Source: Flavobacteriaceae bacterium
GTDB taxonomy: Bacteria > Bacteroidota > Bacteroidia > Flavobacteriales > Flavobacteriaceae
Reading direction: 5' to 3'
Assembly (NCBI GenBank): GCA_947459635.1
Contig: CANHEA010000004.1
Span: 1-64,000, forward strand
Length of the DNA: 64,000 bases
Below, piece by piece: positions 6,679-63,808 of this stretch. The notes under the pieces are model-generated. The model saw only the letters and a program-made list of their open reading frames with translations, made no database searches and was not told where the DNA came from. Position 1 is the stretch's first letter, and each line of letters starts with the position of its first letter. A program made the position numbers and the translations under genes.

Positions 6679-6707
6679 AAACTTCTCGAATGTTATTGCA
6701 GAATTCA

Positions 6708-6765
6708 TAAATCGCAAATCACAAATCACAAATCGTAAATCGTAAATAGTAAATCGTAAATAGTA
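6708..6765. repeat. Period-7 micro-repeat tract (AAATCGN units)
   Basis: aaatcgc aaatcac aaatcac aaatcgt aaatcgt aaatagt aaatcgt aaatagt. Confidence 0.9.
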
Positions 6766-6768
6766 TAC

Positions 6769-6912
6769 AGAGCTCATCCAGCTGTACCTTGCAAAAAAAC
6801 CGCGTCTTGCCAACATTGGTAAAGCTTGGCAAGAGCTCCCGCTGGTCGCTTCGCCAAACTAACCAAAGCTAAAGCAAGACGCGGTTTTGTTTTCCAGTGC
6901 CATCTGGGCTAA
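6769..6912 (-). repeat. Variable-stem intergenic element, copy 1
   Basis: Reverse complement starts AGCCCAGATGGCACTGGAAA and ends AGCTGGATGAGCT, matching the ends of the copy at 63730-63808; centre is a perfect 15-bp inverted repeat 6796-6810/6874-6888. Confidence 0.65.
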
Positions 6913-6914
6913 AA

Positions 6915-6948
6915 AATTAGGAATTACGAATTACGAATTAGGAATTAT
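6915..6948. repeat. Period-7 micro-repeat tract (AATTAGG/AATTACG units)
   Basis: aattagg aattacg aattacg aattagg aatta. Confidence 0.9.
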
Positions 6949-6965
6949 CCACTACATTCGTGCAT

Positions 6966-7002
6966 CCTAAATCGCAAATCAAAAATCTAAAATCGCAAAT
7001 CT
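6966..7002. repeat. Period-7-like AAATCNN tract ending at the start codon of the next gene
   Basis: cctaaatcgcaaatcaaaaatctaaaatcgcaaatctcATG. Confidence 0.8.
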
Positions 7003-16701: not shown

Positions 16702-16816
16702 TTTTAGGAGCTTTATCCCGCTTTTCGCTACAATCTTTTTTGTTCTTTGTCACCCCGAGCGCAGTCGAGGGGTTTTCTAGAACAAAAAAGGATTTCCACT
16801 ACAATCGGGGCTAGGG
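16702..16816 (-). repeat. Variable-stem intergenic element, copy 2, with a nested CCCCTCGACTGCGCTCGGGG hairpin
   Basis: Reverse complement CCCTAGCCCCGATTGTAGTGGAAATCCTTTTTTGTTCTAG...AGAACAAAAAAGATTGTAGCGAAAAGCGGGATAAAGCTCCTAA; 12-bp stem 16735-16746/16779-16790. Confidence 0.85.
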
Positions 16817-36947: not shown

Positions 36948-37958
36948 ATGAAAACAAACATTAAATTTATTTTAGTAGCACTAATTGCTATTGTGTCCTT
37001 TTCAGTTACTTCTTGTAGCAGCAGCAGCGATAGTTCAGATCCTGCTCCTACACCTCAGACCATCACTCAAATTGCACAAGGAAATGCGAATTTGTCTCTT
37101 TTGGTAAAAGCATTAACAAAAACTGATCTTGCAGGAACGTTGAACGCAGCGGGTACTTATACTGTTTTCGCTCCAGATAATACTGCCTTCATTGCTGCTG
37201 GTTATACTGATGCAGCTGCTATTGATGCCTTAACAACTGAAGAAACTGCTGCACTGAAAAATATTTTATTAAACCATGTACTTTCAACAAAAAAAACAGC
37301 GGCTGAATTAACCACTGGTTATAAAAAGACATTGGCTGTTCCCGTTGCAAATCCAACAGGAAAAATAGATATGTTCGTAAGTAATACTGCAGATGGAGTT
37401 ATTTTAAATTCCACCAGCGAAGTATCAACTCCAAATATCGCTGCTTCAAATGGAATAATACATATTGTGGATGAAGTAATTGCTTTGCCTTCTATAGTTA
37501 CTTTTGTGGGCTCAGATCCAAATTTAACCTCTTTATATGCTGCAGTAACTAGACTTGATCAAGCATCAGCTGGTTTTGTTGGACTCCTAAGTGGCACAAC
37601 TTCTTCTCCATTTACTGTTTTTGCACCCACTAATGCTGCTTTTACTTCTTATCCTACAGAATCAGGTAACACTGCAAGTGAATTAACGGGAGGAAATTTG
37701 ACCAAGATCTTAAAATATCATGTTGTTTCAGGGCAAAATTATAGTTCATCACAATTGTTTGGTTTAACAACACTGACAACTCTTTTAGATACTGGTGCGT
37801 CAGGATTTCAAGCTATTACGGTTGTCGCAAATCCTGCAAGTGGATTGCAACTTAAAGACAATAATAATAAATCAACTTCTCTTGATGTAGCTTACGACAT
37901 TCAAGCTAACAATGGTATCATTCATCAAATAAAAAATGTTTTGAAACCAAATTTGTAG
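36948..37958 (+). CDS. Fasciclin-domain lipoprotein (two FAS1 domains)
   Basis: Lipobox SVTSCSS; YTVFAPDNTAF and FTVFAPTNAAF FAS1 motifs with IIHIVDEV/IIHQIKNVL. Confidence 0.93.
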   Translation: MKTNIKFILVALIAIVSFSVTSCSSSSDSSDPAPTPQTITQIAQGNANLSLLVKALTKTDLAGTLNAAGTYTVFAPDNTAFIAAGYTDAAAIDALTTEETAALKNILLNHVLSTKKTAAELTTGYKKTLAVPVANPTGKIDMFVSNTADGVILNSTSEVSTPNIAASNGIIHIVDEVIALPSIVTFVGSDPNLTSLYAAVTRLDQASAGFVGLLSGTTSSPFTVFAPTNAAFTSYPTESGNTASELTGGNLTKILKYHVVSGQNYSSSQLFGLTTLTTLLDTGASGFQAITVVANPASGLQLKDNNNKSTSLDVAYDIQANNGIIHQIKNVLKPNL

Positions 37959-37977
37959 CATTTAAGATATAACAATC

Positions 37978-38010
37978 AAAAAAGCCTTCCTAACCGAAGG
38001 CTTTTTTATT
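37978..38010. terminator. Bidirectional terminator between convergent genes
   Basis: AAAAAAGCCTTCctaaccGAAGGCTTTTTTATT. Confidence 0.9.
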
Positions 38011-42398: not shown

Positions 42399-43265
42399 AT
42401 GATATCCTATAACACCAAAGATTGGTTTACTTTCATTTTCAAATTTCATAAGGCCGATACGTTTCGAACTTTGTTTCCGATTATGATCGCTATTGCTCTT
42501 TACGCGGGAATTGTGGGCTACATGGAAGTTGAATATTGGAAACTAGCCGATACCAGTTATATTAAAAATATCACCATCATGCATGGAATGCTGGGGTTCG
42601 TCATATCGTTATTGTTAGTTTTTAGAACCAATACGGCCTACGATCGTTGGTGGGAAGGGAGAAAAATGTGGGGCGCGTTAGTGAATAATAGCAGGAATTT
42701 TGCGTTGAAACTCGCTGTGATTTTGAAAGACGAAAAAGACAGTCAATATTTCAAAAAGTTAATTCCTACGTATGCCGCAGTGTTGCACCAGCATTTGAGC
42801 AACGATGAAACAAGCCAACAATTGTTTGATGATGTTGATTTGGAAATTGACCATCATTTGCATAAACCTAATCAAGTGGCAAAAAAGATGTTTCAAAAAT
42901 TGAATGATTTGTATGACGAGCAAAAAATATCTGGCGATCAATTGATTATTTTGAATGCCGAAATACAATCATTTACGGATATTTGTGGCGCGTGCGAGCG
43001 TATCAAGAATACGCCTATTCCCTATTCTTACAGCGCATTTATTAAGAAGTTTATTTTCTTTTACGTGATGACTTTGCCTTTTGGCTATTCGTTTAGTTTG
43101 GGCTATTATACCGCACCTGTCGTCGTTTTTATCTTTTATGTTTTGGCGAGTTTGGAATTGATTGCTGAAGAAATTGAAGATCCTTTTGGTGGCGATGCCA
43201 ATGATTTGCCGACACAGAAAATCGCGGAAAATATCAAAAAACATGTGGGTGAACTGATGCCCTAG
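42399..43265 (+). CDS. Bestrophin/UPF0187-family membrane protein
   Basis: LLVFRTNTAYDRWWEGRKMWGALVNNSRNFA, RIKNTPIPYSYSAFIKKF, EIEDPFGGDANDLP. Confidence 0.93.
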   Translation: MISYNTKDWFTFIFKFHKADTFRTLFPIMIAIALYAGIVGYMEVEYWKLADTSYIKNITIMHGMLGFVISLLLVFRTNTAYDRWWEGRKMWGALVNNSRNFALKLAVILKDEKDSQYFKKLIPTYAAVLHQHLSNDETSQQLFDDVDLEIDHHLHKPNQVAKKMFQKLNDLYDEQKISGDQLIILNAEIQSFTDICGACERIKNTPIPYSYSAFIKKFIFFYVMTLPFGYSFSLGYYTAPVVVFIFYVLASLELIAEEIEDPFGGDANDLPTQKIAENIKKHVGELMP

Positions 43266-43345
43266 CCCTGATAGTAGCGGTATCCTTTTGCGACGGTTTT
43301 CCGCGCAAAAGATTTAGCGGATAGCAGGTTCCCGGCTTCTAAAAA
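43260..43345 (+). repeat. Variable-stem intergenic element, copy 3
   Basis: cCCTAGCCCTGATAGTAGCGGTATCCTTTTGCGacggttttccgCGCAAAAGATTTAGCGGATAGCAGGTTCCCGGCTTCTAA; overlaps bestrophin stop codon. Confidence 0.9.
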
Positions 43346-43418: not shown

Positions 43419-44342
43419 ATGAACCACCAGCGCGCTTTTATCAATCCACCGCATTTGTCTAAGGAAAAATCTCTTAAGACGTTGGTTGAAAATCGCACGG
43501 TCTATTCCTTAAATCATTGCGAATTGAATTTGTTCGAAACGTACGAAGCTTCGGCGCTAGTTCCATTAAAATTTAATGATTTGGTGGTGACCAGTATGTT
43601 GCGAGGTAAGAAAGTGATGCATCTTTTTGACGATCCTGAATTTGATTATTTGCCAGGAGAAACGGTAGTGATTCCGTCGAATGTAGAGATGAAAATTGAT
43701 TTTCCAGAAGCAACCAAGAACAATCCGACACAATGTTTGGCATTGGCGATTGATCAAGCGAAAATTACAGACACACTGCATTTTCTCAATGAGCGTTATC
43801 CAAAAGAAGGCAACAATCATTTTTGGCAATTGAATTATCAGAATTACTTTTTTTATAATAATGTCGAATTGGCGGCCACCATCAACAAACTCATCAAGGA
43901 ATGCATGAGCACTTCGATTACTAAAGATGCTTTAGCAGATTTGACCTTGCAGGAATTATTGATTCGGATTATCCAAACACAAACGGCCAAAGCCATTGAT
44001 GATGGATTAATGTTGGATCAAAAAAATCCGATGTCGCAGGTGGTGGAATTTATTAGAATGAATTTGAAGGAGAACATCAGCATGAAAAATCTGAGTGAAA
44101 AAGCCTGTATGAGTACCACTTCATTCTATCGTTTTTTCAAGCGGGAATTGGGTATGAGTCCATTGGAGTTTGTACTTCACGAAAAAATGAAATGCGCCAA
44201 GCAACTTTTAAAAAACCCATCGATTCAAATCAACGAAGTCTGTTATATGTCGGGGTTTGAAGATTGCAATTACTTCATTCGACTCTTTAAAAAGCACGAA
44301 GGCATTACACCGAAACAGTATCAATTGTTGTATGTGAATTAA
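43419..44342 (+). CDS. AraC family transcriptional regulator
   Basis: C-terminal HTH: NLSEKACMSTTSFYRFFKRELGMSPLEFVLHEKM...EVCYMSGFEDCNYFIRLFKKHEGITPKQY. Confidence 0.93.
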   Translation: MNHQRAFINPPHLSKEKSLKTLVENRTVYSLNHCELNLFETYEASALVPLKFNDLVVTSMLRGKKVMHLFDDPEFDYLPGETVVIPSNVEMKIDFPEATKNNPTQCLALAIDQAKITDTLHFLNERYPKEGNNHFWQLNYQNYFFYNNVELAATINKLIKECMSTSITKDALADLTLQELLIRIIQTQTAKAIDDGLMLDQKNPMSQVVEFIRMNLKENISMKNLSEKACMSTTSFYRFFKRELGMSPLEFVLHEKMKCAKQLLKNPSIQINEVCYMSGFEDCNYFIRLFKKHEGITPKQYQLLYVN

Positions 44343-44713
44343 TCTTCGAGAAAATGCAACGGTGATAAATCTTGTAATTCTTCTGTTGTAAACATTCTCG
44401 ATTGTGTGAGAAACCGCAAACCCATTGGAATTTCTAAAGAAAAACTTGAGCCTCGACCTTCGACTACATGAATGGTTAAATGGGTAAATTTCCAATATTC
44501 GAATTGGTCTTTACTCATCCAGAACTCGCAATCATCTATGATTCCAAGGCAGACGTCACTTTGTCCGATTTTGAAATCACCTTTTTCGAAGCACATAGGT
44601 TGGGAACCATCGCAGCAGCCGCCACTTTGGTGAAACATTAAGTCACCGTATTTGGCTTTTAGTTTTGCAATTAATTCGCTGGCTTCGGGTGTTACGGATA
44701 CTCTTGGTGTCAT
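44339..44713 (-). CDS. DUF779 domain-containing protein
   Basis: MFHQSGGCCDGSQPMCF...GIIDDCEFWMSKDQFEYWKFTHLTIHVVEGRGSSFSLE. Confidence 0.88.
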   Translation of the reverse strand: MTPRVSVTPEASELIAKLKAKYGDLMFHQSGGCCDGSQPMCFEKGDFKIGQSDVCLGIIDDCEFWMSKDQFEYWKFTHLTIHVVEGRGSSFSLEIPMGLRFLTQSRMFTTEELQDLSPLHFLED

Positions 44714-44747
44714 GCCGTCATTTTAAGATTGTGTTGCTAAAAAAAAA

Positions 44748-44854
44748 TTAACCGCAAGGAGCGCAAAGTTTTTTGCTAAGTTCGCTATAAAAATTTTAGA
44801 TTAATGAAGTAACCTTGCGATCCTTGCGAAAAACTTTGCGCACCTTGCGGTTAG
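44748..44854. repeat. Inverted AACCGCAAGGNGCGCAAAG repeat hairpin
   Basis: Left 44748-44776 ttaaccgcaaggagcgcaaagttttttgc; right 44826-44854 gcgaaaaactttgcgcaccttgcggttag; about 26/29 complementary. Confidence 0.9.
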
Positions 44855-44879
44855 AAAAAAACCAACAATTCACTACTTT

Positions 44880-46385
44880 CTAAAAGAAACCTAACTTGTT
44901 TTTATCATACGAAATCAACATGTTTTTCACTTGTCGGTAATGGTCGAGCATCATTTTGTGATTTTCTCTACCGAAACCTGATTTTTTATAACCCCCAAAC
45001 GGTGCATGTGCTGGATATGCATGGTAACTATTAACCCAAACACGGCCCGCTTGAATAGCTCTTGGCACTTGATATATTTCGTGTGCATCGCGCGTCCAAA
45101 CGCCTGAACCCAATCCGTATAAAGTGTCGTTGGCGATTTCTATGGCTTCTTCGACCGTTTTGAATGTTGTCACGCACAATACCGGTCCAAAAATTTCCTC
45201 TTGAAACACACGCATTTTGTTATTGCCTTTGAAAATTGTAGGTTGAATGTAATAACCGCCCGCCAATTCACCATCAAGATGATTGATTTCGCCACCGACT
45301 AAAACTTCAGCGCCTTCTTCTTTTCCTATTTTCAAGTACGATTGAATTTTTTCATACTGATCGTTGGATGCTTGTGCGCCCATCATCACGGTTCCGTCTA
45401 ACGGATGTCCGATTTTGATGGCTTTGACACGTTCGATAATTCTTGGCATCAACTTGTCATAGATATCTTCTTGAATTAACAAACGAGATGGACAAGTACA
45501 GATTTCACCTTGATTTAGGGCAAACATTACTGCACCTTCAATCGCTTTGTCAAAGAATGCATCATCAGCATCAGCAACGGATGAGAAGAAAATATTGGGT
45601 GATTTTCCACCTAATTCCATAGTTACGGGAACTAAATTTTCAGAAGCGTATTGCATGATTAAACGTCCAGTTGTAGTTTCTCCAGTAAAGGAAACTTTTG
45701 CTACTCTGTCTGATTGCGCTAATGGTTTTCCAGCTTCTAGTCCAAAACCTGTAACGATGTTTAGAACTCCTGGTGGGAGAATATCTTGGATTAATTCCAT
45801 CAACACCATAATAGAAGTTGGGGTTTGTTCTGCTGGTTTTACGACACAACAGTTTCCGGCAGCTAAAGCTGGAGCGATTTTCCATGTCGCCATAAGCAGT
45901 GGGAAATTCCACGGAATGATTTGTCCAACTACACCTAGTGGTTCGCTCAAACATATGCTAACCGTGTTTTCGTCATGTTCAGAAATGCTGCCTTCTTCGG
46001 CGCGAATTACACCAGCGAAATACCGGAAATGATCGATAACTAGAGGTAAATCAGCGGCGCGGGTTTCACGAATGGCTTTCCCGTTGTCGATGGTTTCTAC
46101 GATAGCGAGGTATTCGAGGTTTTCTTCGATGACGTTTGCAATTTTATTTAATAGATTGCTGCGGTGTGCTGCCGAAGATTTTCCCCACGTTTTGAATGCT
46201 TCGTGAGCTGCATCTAGTGCTAAATTGACATCGGCTTTGGTCGATCGAGCCGCTTTGGTAAATACTTTTCCGTCGATTGGAGAAATGTTTTCGAAATATT
46301 CTCCTCCGACTGGCGGTACAAATTTTCCGCCGATAAAATTGTCATACTGTGCCTTGAATTCAGGTCTTTGAACTATGTTACTCAT
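44880..46385 (-). CDS. Aldehyde dehydrogenase family protein
   Basis: [58 protein letters not shown]; start chosen at [10 protein letters not shown] within ORF 44880..46454. Confidence 0.95.
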
Positions 46386-46577
46386 CTTTTTATGGTTTTT
46401 GGTTCGCTCAAATGTACTTTCATGGTTGACATTTGAATAGCACAATTCGGTCAACTGATAGCACTAAATTTCCATATTCCTTTTTTAACGTATTTTTTTT
46501 AAGGGATTCTGATTTAATGGGCTTCAAGTTATAGAATTCTCAATTTGTTTTCTTGTGAATCGCATTTGAATACCACT

Positions 46578-46664
46578 GCCCTAGCCCTGATAGTAGCGGT
46601 ATCCTTTTGCGCCGGTTTTCGGCGTGAAAGATTTAGCGGATAGCAGGTTCCCGGCTCCTAAAAA
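46578..46664 (+). repeat. Variable-stem intergenic element, copy 4
   Basis: CCCTAGCCCTGATAGTAGCGGTATCCTTTTGCGCCGgttttCGGCGTGAAAGATTTAGCGGATAGCAGGTTCCCGGCTCCTAA. Confidence 0.9.
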
Positions 46665-46749: not shown

Positions 46750-49170
46750 ATGAAAATCTCGTACAACTGGTTAAAACAATTCATTAAAATCGATTGGAAA
46801 TCTGACGAAACTGCAGCGCTATTAACCGATCTTGGTTTAGAAGTGGAAGTCGTAGAAAAATACCAATCCGTAAAAGGTGGTCTGGAAGGGATTGTCGTTG
46901 GGCATGTTTTGACTTGTGTACAGCATCCTAATGCCGATCGATTGAAAGTAACTACGGTTGATTTGGGAGATGGCACGCCAGTTCAAATTGTATGTGGCGC
47001 CAGCAATGTTGCCGCTGGACAGAAAGTACCTGTTGCCACGATTGGATCGACTTTGTACGATAAAGATGGAAATGCATTCGTCATCAAGAAAGGAAAAATT
47101 CGAGACGAGGAAAGTCACGGAATGATCTGCGCTGAAGACGAAATTGGGCTAGGAACGGGCCATGACGGGATTATGGTGTTAGATGCCAATTTGAAACCTG
47201 GAACTTCTGTCGCCAAAATCTTTAAAGTAGAAAATGACGAAATCTTTGAAATTGGATTAACGCCCAATCGCGCCGATGCGATGAGTCACCTTGGAACTGC
47301 GAGAGATTTGCGTGCGGGACTTATTCAAAGTGGTGTCAACGTGGAGTTGATTACACCTTCTGTAAGTAACTTTAGAATAGACAAGCGTACTTTAAAAATA
47401 GATGTCAAAGTAGAAAACGGCAAATTAGCACCAAGATATTGCGGCGTTACCATTTCAGGAATTACCGTAAAACCGTCACCAGAATGGCTGCAAAACCGTT
47501 TAAAATCGATTGGATTAAATCCAAAAAACAATATCGTTGACGTTACTAATTACGTGCTACACGAATTGGGCCAGCCGCTTCACGCCTTTGATGCGTCGAA
47601 AATTAACGGTAAAATTTTGGTTAAAACATTGACTGCAGGAACGAAATTTACCACGCTGGATGATGTGGAGCGAACGTTGCATGAAGAGGATTTAATGATT
47701 TGCGATGAGAAAGGACCAATGTGTATTGCGGGCGTTTTTGGAGGTAAACACTCTGGTGTTAGCGAAAGCACGACCAACATATTTTTAGAAAGCGCTTATT
47801 TTAATCCGGTAAGTATTCGTAAAACAGCTAAGAGACACGGTTTGAGTACAGATGCTTCGTTTCGTTTTGAGCGCGGCATTGATCCGACAATTACCGAATT
47901 TGCTTTGAAAAGAGCCGCTTTGTTAATTCAAGAAGTGGCTGGAGGCGAAATTACTTCGGATGTGATCGACATTTATCCAAAGAAGATTGAAGATTTCCCT
48001 GTATTTTTGAATTTTGCCAAAACAGCCAAGCTCATTGGACAAGAATTATCTAAAGAAATTATCAAGAAAATTTTGGCGTCGTTGGACATCAAAGTCAATA
48101 GTGTTACCGATGCCGGCTTAGGCTTGACCATTCCTGCGTATCGCGTGGATGTCCAAAGAGAAATTGATGTGATTGAAGAAATCCTGCGTGTGTATGGCTA
48201 TAACAACATCAACTTCACTAAGAAACTCAATGCGACCGTTTCGAACTCAGCACGAACGGAAGATTACAAACTACAAAACATCGTAGGAAATCAACTGAAT
48301 TCGCTGGGCTTTAATGAAATGATGGCGAATTCCTTAACTAGTCCAGAGTATGTTGCGCTCTCTGAAATGCTGCAAACGGAACACAACGTGACGATGTTGA
48401 ATCCGCTGAGCAATGAGTTATCAACAATGCGACAATCTTTATTATTTTCTGGATTAGAAGCTATTTCGTATAACATCAATCGTCGAAATTCAGATCTAAA
48501 ATTATTTGAATTTGGAAAATCGTACCATCGTTTTGAATCGGGTTATGAAGAATTAAAACACCTGACGCTCTTCCTTTCGGGCAATCGAAATGCTGAAAAT
48601 TGGACTGCGGGGCAAACGCCTACTGATTTCTTCCTTTTTAAGGGATATATCGATGCTATTATTTCTAGATTGGGTATCGACAAAATCAAAACTGAACCAC
48701 TACAATCAGACGTTTTTGCAGAAGGATTGACCATGGTAATTGGTGAAGAAAAACTGGTCGAATTTGGAACCGTGAGAAAAAATATTCTGAAACACTTTGA
48801 TATCACACAAGAAGTCTTATTTGCTGATTTTAATTGGAATTTGGTTTTGAAAGTGATCAATACAAAAATCAAGTTTACTGACATTCCGAAATATCCCGAA
48901 GTGCGCAGAGATTTGGCGTTGTTACTCGATGAGAACATTAGTTTTGAAGCAATCTACAAAATTGCAAGACAAAGCGAAAAAACGCTATTAAAAGATATTG
49001 TTTTGTTTGATGTTTACAACGGCAATAACCTCCCAGAAGGTAAAAAATCTTACGCGATTAGTTTTACCATTCAAGACTTTTCTAAGACACTCACCGACGA
49101 ACAAATTGACAAAGTAATGAGTAAACTCCAAAAAAGTTTAACGTCGGAACTTGGTGCTATTTTACGTTAA
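46750..49170 (+). CDS. pheT: Phenylalanine-tRNA ligase beta subunit
   Basis: MKISYNWLKQFI, GLTPNRADAMSHLGTARDL, LFEFGKSY, C-terminal anticodon-binding FDX-ACB domain; ORF opens at 46735 but MKISYNWLK starts at 46750. Confidence 0.97.
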   Translation: MKISYNWLKQFIKIDWKSDETAALLTDLGLEVEVVEKYQSVKGGLEGIVVGHVLTCVQHPNADRLKVTTVDLGDGTPVQIVCGASNVAAGQKVPVATIGSTLYDKDGNAFVIKKGKIRDEESHGMICAEDEIGLGTGHDGIMVLDANLKPGTSVAKIFKVENDEIFEIGLTPNRADAMSHLGTARDLRAGLIQSGVNVELITPSVSNFRIDKRTLKIDVKVENGKLAPRYCGVTISGITVKPSPEWLQNRLKSIGLNPKNNIVDVTNYVLHELGQPLHAFDASKINGKILVKTLTAGTKFTTLDDVERTLHEEDLMICDEKGPMCIAGVFGGKHSGVSESTTNIFLESAYFNPVSIRKTAKRHGLSTDASFRFERGIDPTITEFALKRAALLIQEVAGGEITSDVIDIYPKKIEDFPVFLNFAKTAKLIGQELSKEIIKKILASLDIKVNSVTDAGLGLTIPAYRVDVQREIDVIEEILRVYGYNNINFTKKLNATVSNSARTEDYKLQNIVGNQLNSLGFNEMMANSLTSPEYVALSEMLQTEHNVTMLNPLSNELSTMRQSLLFSGLEAISYNINRRNSDLKLFEFGKSYHRFESGYEELKHLTLFLSGNRNAENWTAGQTPTDFFLFKGYIDAIISRLGIDKIKTEPLQSDVFAEGLTMVIGEEKLVEFGTVRKNILKHFDITQEVLFADFNWNLVLKVINTKIKFTDIPKYPEVRRDLALLLDENISFEAIYKIARQSEKTLLKDIVLFDVYNGNNLPEGKKSYAISFTIQDFSKTLTDEQIDKVMSKLQKSLTSELGAILR

Positions 49171-63721: not shown

Positions 63722-63729
63722 CACAGGTC

Positions 63730-63808
63730 TCTAGCCCAGATAGAAGCGACTATCCTTTTGCGATGGCGTTCAGCGCAAAAGATAATAGCGAATAGCTGGA
63801 TTAGCTTC
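63730..63808 (+). repeat. Variable-stem intergenic element, copy 5
   Basis: CTCTAGCCCAGATAGAAGCGACTATCCTTTTGCGatggcgttcagCGCAAAAGATAATAGCGAATAGCTGGATTAGCTTC. Confidence 0.8.

Follow-up and report, generated by a model that had tools for sequence, protein, structure and literature searches.

Flavo-1 in flavobacteria: probably a dispersed palindromic DNA repeat whose core is exchanged within a fixed frame

The five dispersed repeats in the window (the whole stretch of DNA analysed, 64,000 nucleotides from a Flavobacteriaceae bacterium) are copies of the already catalogued family Flavo-1. The comparisons indicate that Flavo-1 is probably not a dedicated small-RNA gene but an imperfect palindromic DNA repeat of REP/MITE-like kind, in which a fixed frame encloses a core that can be exchanged. 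The frame consists of the ends and the arms with their invariant GNA mismatch loops, and it stays in place while the core is replaced as a block. The copies themselves hold no novelty; what is new is the evidence on the nature of the family, which is scattered, found both ways round, gained and lost between species, and built of a persistent frame with a replaceable tip.

Identity of the repeats

All five repeats in the window matched Flavo-1 (RF01705) in a cmscan search against Rfam, four of them above the gathering score of 42 bits, the curated cut-off of the covariance model (Table 1). A two-arm scanner likewise recovered five of five, and gave zero matches in 400 kb of locally shuffled sequence from a relative. 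The conserved unit, as seen in 43 copies, runs from 5' YYYTAGCCC to 3' AGCTYCTAAAAAA and is slightly longer than the Rfam model. Two types of arms are found, type A with GRAAATCC...GATTG and type C with GGCATCC...GATA. Of 187 copies, 171 have both arms of one type; among the other 16, 13 come from the pheT data set (80 orthologous loci with pheT as the anchor), mostly from one variant site, designated X.

The initial annotation had the places and strands of the five copies right, as both re-inspection and cmscan bear out, and its description of fixed ends around a variable paired core is accurate. The limits it gave need a small correction, the 43 copies showing that the element extends slightly beyond them. 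The copies at 6.8 kb and 16.7 kb can be aligned with the other three. The comparison with Flavo-1 that it had called for shows that this is no new family.

The degenerate 6.8 kb copy has near-tandem ATTTACGATTT / ATTTGCGATTT and TAATTCGTAATTCC repeats on both sides (window positions 6690-6770 and 6925-7000). A weak Phe_leader match at 37923-38010 (30.3 of 55 bits) consists mostly of the terminator hairpin and is probably an ordinary terminator.

Table 1. Flavo-1 copies and associated genes in the window
Feature	Position	Strand	Remarks
Flavo-1 copy 1	43260..43335	+	64.1 bits; type C arms; arms 43263-43285 and 43311-43329; exchangeable core 43286-43310
Flavo-1 copy 2	46579..46654	+	66.1 bits; type C arms; upstream of pheT
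Flavo-1 copy 3	63729..63806	+	67.7 bits; diverged; called type A by the scanner
Flavo-1 copy 4	16710..16816	-	74.0 bits; type A arms; apical loop with a second palindromic repeat, CCCCTCGACTGCGCTCGGGGTGAC
Flavo-1 copy 5	6771..6914	-	37.3 bits (below 42), E 2.6e-4; degenerate; enlarged core
Bestrophin gene	42399..43265	+	ends ...ELMP, with its stop on the TAG of copy 1
AraC regulator, small ORF and aldehyde dehydrogenase	43419..46454		between the direct copies 1 and 2; missing in close relatives
pheT	46750..49170	+	anchor for the 80 orthologous loci

Abundance and orthologous sites

The genome from which the window is taken, a draft of 2.68 Mb in 148 contigs, contains about 145 Flavo-1 matches above the cut-off, a figure that is possibly a lower bound, 150 candidates having been scored; 65 of these copies were studied in detail. 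Flavo-1 is present in 26 of the 41 genomes searched, this one included, with 3 to at least 87 copies each. The genome search gave zero copies in two members of the same genus (G019 and G021), and three complete genomes of the genus hold 55, 93 and 42. Spacing along the chromosome is near random (coefficient of variation 0.87-1.03) and no replichore strand bias of the copies was seen. There is no sign of a recent burst, the median identity to the nearest neighbour being 0.85. A nucleotide search for plasmid or phage carriage, made with the 43.26 kb copy, returned nothing, which is a weak result as the copies diverge quickly. A rare BIME-like pair, two copies in opposite orientation 46 bases apart, was observed at G294:C1:739125-739346.

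The initial annotation had proposed a comparison of occupied and empty orthologous sites, and both were found. Among 30 copies from G010 or G311 with collinear flanks in G294, the site is occupied in 19 and without a copy in 11, two of the latter being ambiguous. The L102 site in G294 retains an element-like right end and the L331 site retains the right half of the element, and because of such remnants some of the unoccupied sites are losses. No target-site duplication was recognised in the filled and unfilled pairs examined, whose 80-97% identity means that a short one could have been lost.

Fold and gene context

In 21 copies of equal length 99.0% of the cells fall in standard pairs, against 87.9% after shuffling, and pairing drops to 33-50% when the partner is shifted by 1-3 columns. 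Compensatory change is found at 12 of 20 pairs in the same copies, and none of 500 shuffles reached the observed covariation. Together with the approximately 145 copies in 2.68 Mb, the failure of all 500 shuffles to match the observed pairing or covariation places Flavo-1 beyond chance. The larger set has 94 copies of type C and 77 of type A. Most of its freely varying arm pairs reach 95-100% pairing, compared with approximately 50-90% after shuffling, and one type C pair is paired in 84 of 94 copies; as the copies are related and not independent, these pairing counts are not probabilities. The unpaired positions hardly vary and make up 3x3 GNA/GNA loops, a pattern compatible with sheared G.A pairs. 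Judged by sequence comparison, the predicted fold is real, and the base-paired constraint with a free apical stem described in the initial annotation is upheld by the pairing and covariation tests.

Such a fold invites a second reading, in which Flavo-1 is a real RNA element, either a trans-acting small RNA or a protein-binding cis element in mRNA ends, with an apical stem that is free to vary. The strong covariation with invariant unpaired bases supports it and also counts against the DNA-repeat reading, and the near-invariance of the 3x3 loops is a further point on its side. The sense strand outfolds the antisense strand in 119 of 137 copies with RNA parameters; the preference is, however, equally clear with DNA parameters (132 of 137). 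G-T pairs make up approximately 2-3% of the variable arm pairs and approximately 5% of the apical pairs. Natural RNA helices are usually richer in G-T pairs, and this scarcity makes Flavo-1 lean, short of proof, towards DNA.

The orientation relative to genes also speaks against an RNA element. With neighbouring genes called by a simple open-frame rule, 70 copies have a gene on each side. Of these, 30 run antisense to both genes and 16 sense to both, and 9 sit in convergent and 15 in divergent gene pairs. All four arrangements thus occur, with none of the fixed orientation or place relative to genes that marks a cis-acting mRNA element, and between divergent genes Flavo-1 is in no 3' UTR. Dozens to more than 100 copies per genome, and absence from some members of the genus, are further arguments against the RNA reading. 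The catalogue type of Flavo-1 is sRNA, and Weinberg et al. scored it as likely RNA and not cis-regulatory (PMC2864571), but published transcription is not strand-consistent. In the transcriptome of Flavobacterium psychrophilum the Flavo-1 hits are sense or antisense to transcribed regions indistinctly, and many are outside any (PMC9723704). On balance the RNA reading is regarded as unlikely. Because the copies are dispersed, lie both ways round and are present or absent between species, the REP/MITE-like alternative offered in the initial annotation is favoured; the RAYT/Y1 link for which it suggested a check was not found. A DNA repeat and an RNA function are not strictly exclusive.

Flavo-1 was also tried as an intrinsic terminator. 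This was rejected: there is no T run, the hairpin being followed by CTAAAAAA on the sense side and by GGGCTAGGG on the antisense side.

Each end of Flavo-1 offers a TAG to an incoming gene and some genes stop there. Several distances between gene and element are the exact positions that make the TAG of the element the stop codon. The C-terminus of the bestrophin protein tracks the element: where the element is present it ends in ...P or ...H with the stop on the element TAG, and in species without the element it ends in ...ELL, ...ELI and similar, with TAA, TGA or TAG as the stop.

Search for a mobilising transposase

According to a third reading Flavo-1 is a REP-type element that is mobilised today as single-stranded DNA by a RAYT (Y1 HUH transposase), perhaps of the Bacteroidetes subclass 2.6. 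An imperfect hairpin with conserved mismatches, a strand-specific fold and a high copy number are in keeping with this, and RAYT-like genes do occur in the genus. Bacteroidetes RAYT genes of subclass 2.6 have been reported beside atypical hairpins (PMC6006769). The single Y1_Tnp match in the genome under study is a RAYT with the WQ and IHNNP motifs of that subclass (L039 97-560, G000:C93), but it is a pseudogene, broken by an in-frame TAA before IHNNP. No Flavo-1 match was found on its contig.

The tests of linkage and co-occurrence were negative, and the RAYT/Y1 link suggested in the initial annotation was not found in either. The number of RAYT-like genes, separated from IS200-like matches on the basis of score and length, is not correlated with that of Flavo-1 in 25 genomes of the genus (Spearman -0.08, p 0.72). 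Six genomes (G004, G011, G012, G016, G018 and G020) carry 12-86 Flavo-1 copies and have zero Y1_Tnp matches. No RAYT-like gene was found within 5 kb of Flavo-1 in G002, G009, G013, G023, G024, G027, G030 or G037, for G009 and G013 among the matches listed; in G023 one IS200-like gene is located 1.6 kb from a Flavo-1 match. The lack of a GTAG or CGTC tag and of a lagging-strand style bias also goes against mobilisation by a RAYT. The data give no sign that Flavo-1 is a partner of subclass 2.6 RAYTs, and the reading is considered improbable.

Exchange of the core

At occupied orthologous sites the ends are retained and the apical hairpin has been replaced. The mean core identity of orthologous copies, taken over 18 sites, is 0.65, compared with 0.57 for copies that are not orthologous. 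Only at three of the 18 does the ortholog give the best core match, and at five the arm type has switched. Pairs of copies within the genome under study that have at least 97% identical arms mostly have cores that are approximately 0.4 identical, and arm identity and core identity in this genome are barely correlated (0.22).

The clearest examples are from the pheT region. At site X the loci L324 and L312 have 100% identical arms and 89% identical immediate flanks, with cores that are 0.19 identical. At site Y the flanks of L326 and L336 are 0.89 identical, and both core and arm type differ. One core of site Y, CACGCTTTTGGGCGTG, reappears at site X of L324 (15/16), and another, AGCTTCCAGCC...GGCTGGAAGCT, reappears at site X of L329 (0.93). 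As read from the alignments, the edges of the exchange in these examples are only 4-5 bases long, which would favour template switching or a specific process over ordinary recombination through long homology. A count over 0.45 Mb of the genome under study places the repeat CCCCTCGACTGCGCTCGGGGTGAC, from the loop of the 16.7 kb copy, nine times within detected Flavo-1 copies and seven times elsewhere; the detected copies cover approximately 1% of this sequence, and some of the matches elsewhere may sit in undetected copies.

Sites X and Y, downstream of pheT in L304-L338, hold Flavo-1 variants lengthened by approximately 30 bases near the 3' end, between GGGA and TGCTCC. These longer variants at X and Y are common to one group of Flavobacterium species.

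That Flavo-1 copies are passive old palindromes, with cores changing by template switching within the hairpin and ordinary mutation and no exchange between copies, is in accordance with compensatory change in place (e.g. L124 and its ortholog in G294) and with the lack of a recent burst, but is very improbable: sites whose arms and flanks are nearly identical carry whole cores of other length, and the same cores turn up at two separate sites.

The exchange can tentatively be described by a more specific model, for which the odds are somewhat below even. Flavo-1 would be a docking frame in which the outer arms and mismatch loops remain at their site from species to species and the apical hairpin is exchanged whole, between edges of only 4-5 shared bases (ATCC / GATAC), the donors being other Flavo-1 sites or other dispersed palindromes and the process being a dedicated or replication-coupled one. 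If true, the model would account for the fact that nearly every copy in a genome has a tip of its own. Core exchange appears to be undescribed; the literature searched contained no account of it or of Flavo-1 mobility.

Recombination between copies 1 and 2

Copies 1 and 2, at 43.26 and 46.58 kb, are direct repeats in the same orientation and are identical at 85 of 94 positions. In the loci L280, L281 and L282 there is a single copy, its left flank matching that of copy 1 and its right flank that of copy 2, and the three genes of the module are missing. Because the single copy joins the outer flanks, this arrangement is the product expected of recombination between copies 1 and 2. In the pheT tree the genome carrying the module is nested within the module-absent group (support 89/92). 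A simple deletion of the module in the relatives was set aside because of this nesting, which makes gain in the lineage of the genome under study as likely as loss in several lineages.

A second dispersed inverted repeat (AACCGCAAGGAGCGCAAAG ... CTTTGCGCACCTTGCGGTT) is located beside the aldehyde dehydrogenase gene at 44738-44855, and parts of it match many places in relatives. The drafts with L280 and L320 are labelled Sphingobacterium thalpophilum and Klebsiella pneumoniae, and their pheT is Flavobacterium-like. The L280 label, at least, is probably wrong, since L280 is almost identical to L281.

Discussion

The history suggested by the DNA-repeat reading has several parts. Flavo-1 copies would have been dispersed in the distant past by copying into the ends of genes and the gaps between them, and the hairpin may have been retained because a protein or a replication process acts on the folded strand. 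Cores would be swapped between copies via template switching or short-homology recombination at the ATCC/GAT core edges, and direct repeats of the element may also provide places where recombination adds or removes genes. The mode of movement is putative, and an additional RNA function is possible.

Flavo-1 ranks with the most abundant 'small RNAs' catalogued in bacteria, and no function has been assigned to it since 2010; one review names it as an abundant sRNA family that has no function (PMC9029176). Should it prove to be a recombining DNA palindrome, annotations and counts of small RNAs throughout Flavobacteria are misleading. Replacement of the tip while the frame stays would be an unusual mode of repeat evolution, and the copies would mark points of recombination at which genes are gained or lost.

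Comparison with known systems

In integron attC sites, too, the ends are fixed, the apical part varies, unpaired bases are conserved and one strand is preferred in folding. The likeness to Flavo-1 would be an analogy of form only, Flavo-1 being without arrays and without the GTTRRRY core.

Bacterial MITEs are, like Flavo-1, short, non-coding, scattered and able to supply stop codons. They are characterized by inverted terminal repeats; the ends of Flavo-1 are imperfectly inverted relative to each other, over only approximately 5 bases, TTTAG / CTAAA. No target-site duplication was seen between relatives that are 80-97% identical, a distance at which a short one could have been lost. Flavo-1 differs from MITEs in its conserved, strand-specific internal structure.

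Like Flavo-1, REP elements tagged GTAG or CGTC (PMC3733652) are intergenic, imperfect palindromes that occur in many, divergent copies, often close to the ends of genes. They are 20-40 bases long compared with approximately 76-110 bases for Flavo-1, which has internal mismatch loops. The foot of the Flavo-1 hairpin is YYYTAGCC before the first pair, and the REP tag GTAG (or GTGG) or CGTC is absent. Unlike REPs, Flavo-1 is found mostly as single copies with no linked RAYT.

With the Flavo-1 RNA of Rfam (RF01705; Weinberg et al. 2010, PMC2864571) the repeats share sequence, arms, internal loops and taxonomic range, and there is no difference at the sequence level. The difference is one of type: the catalogue entry is an sRNA gene, whereas the copy number, orientation and core exchange found here argue for a dispersed DNA repeat.
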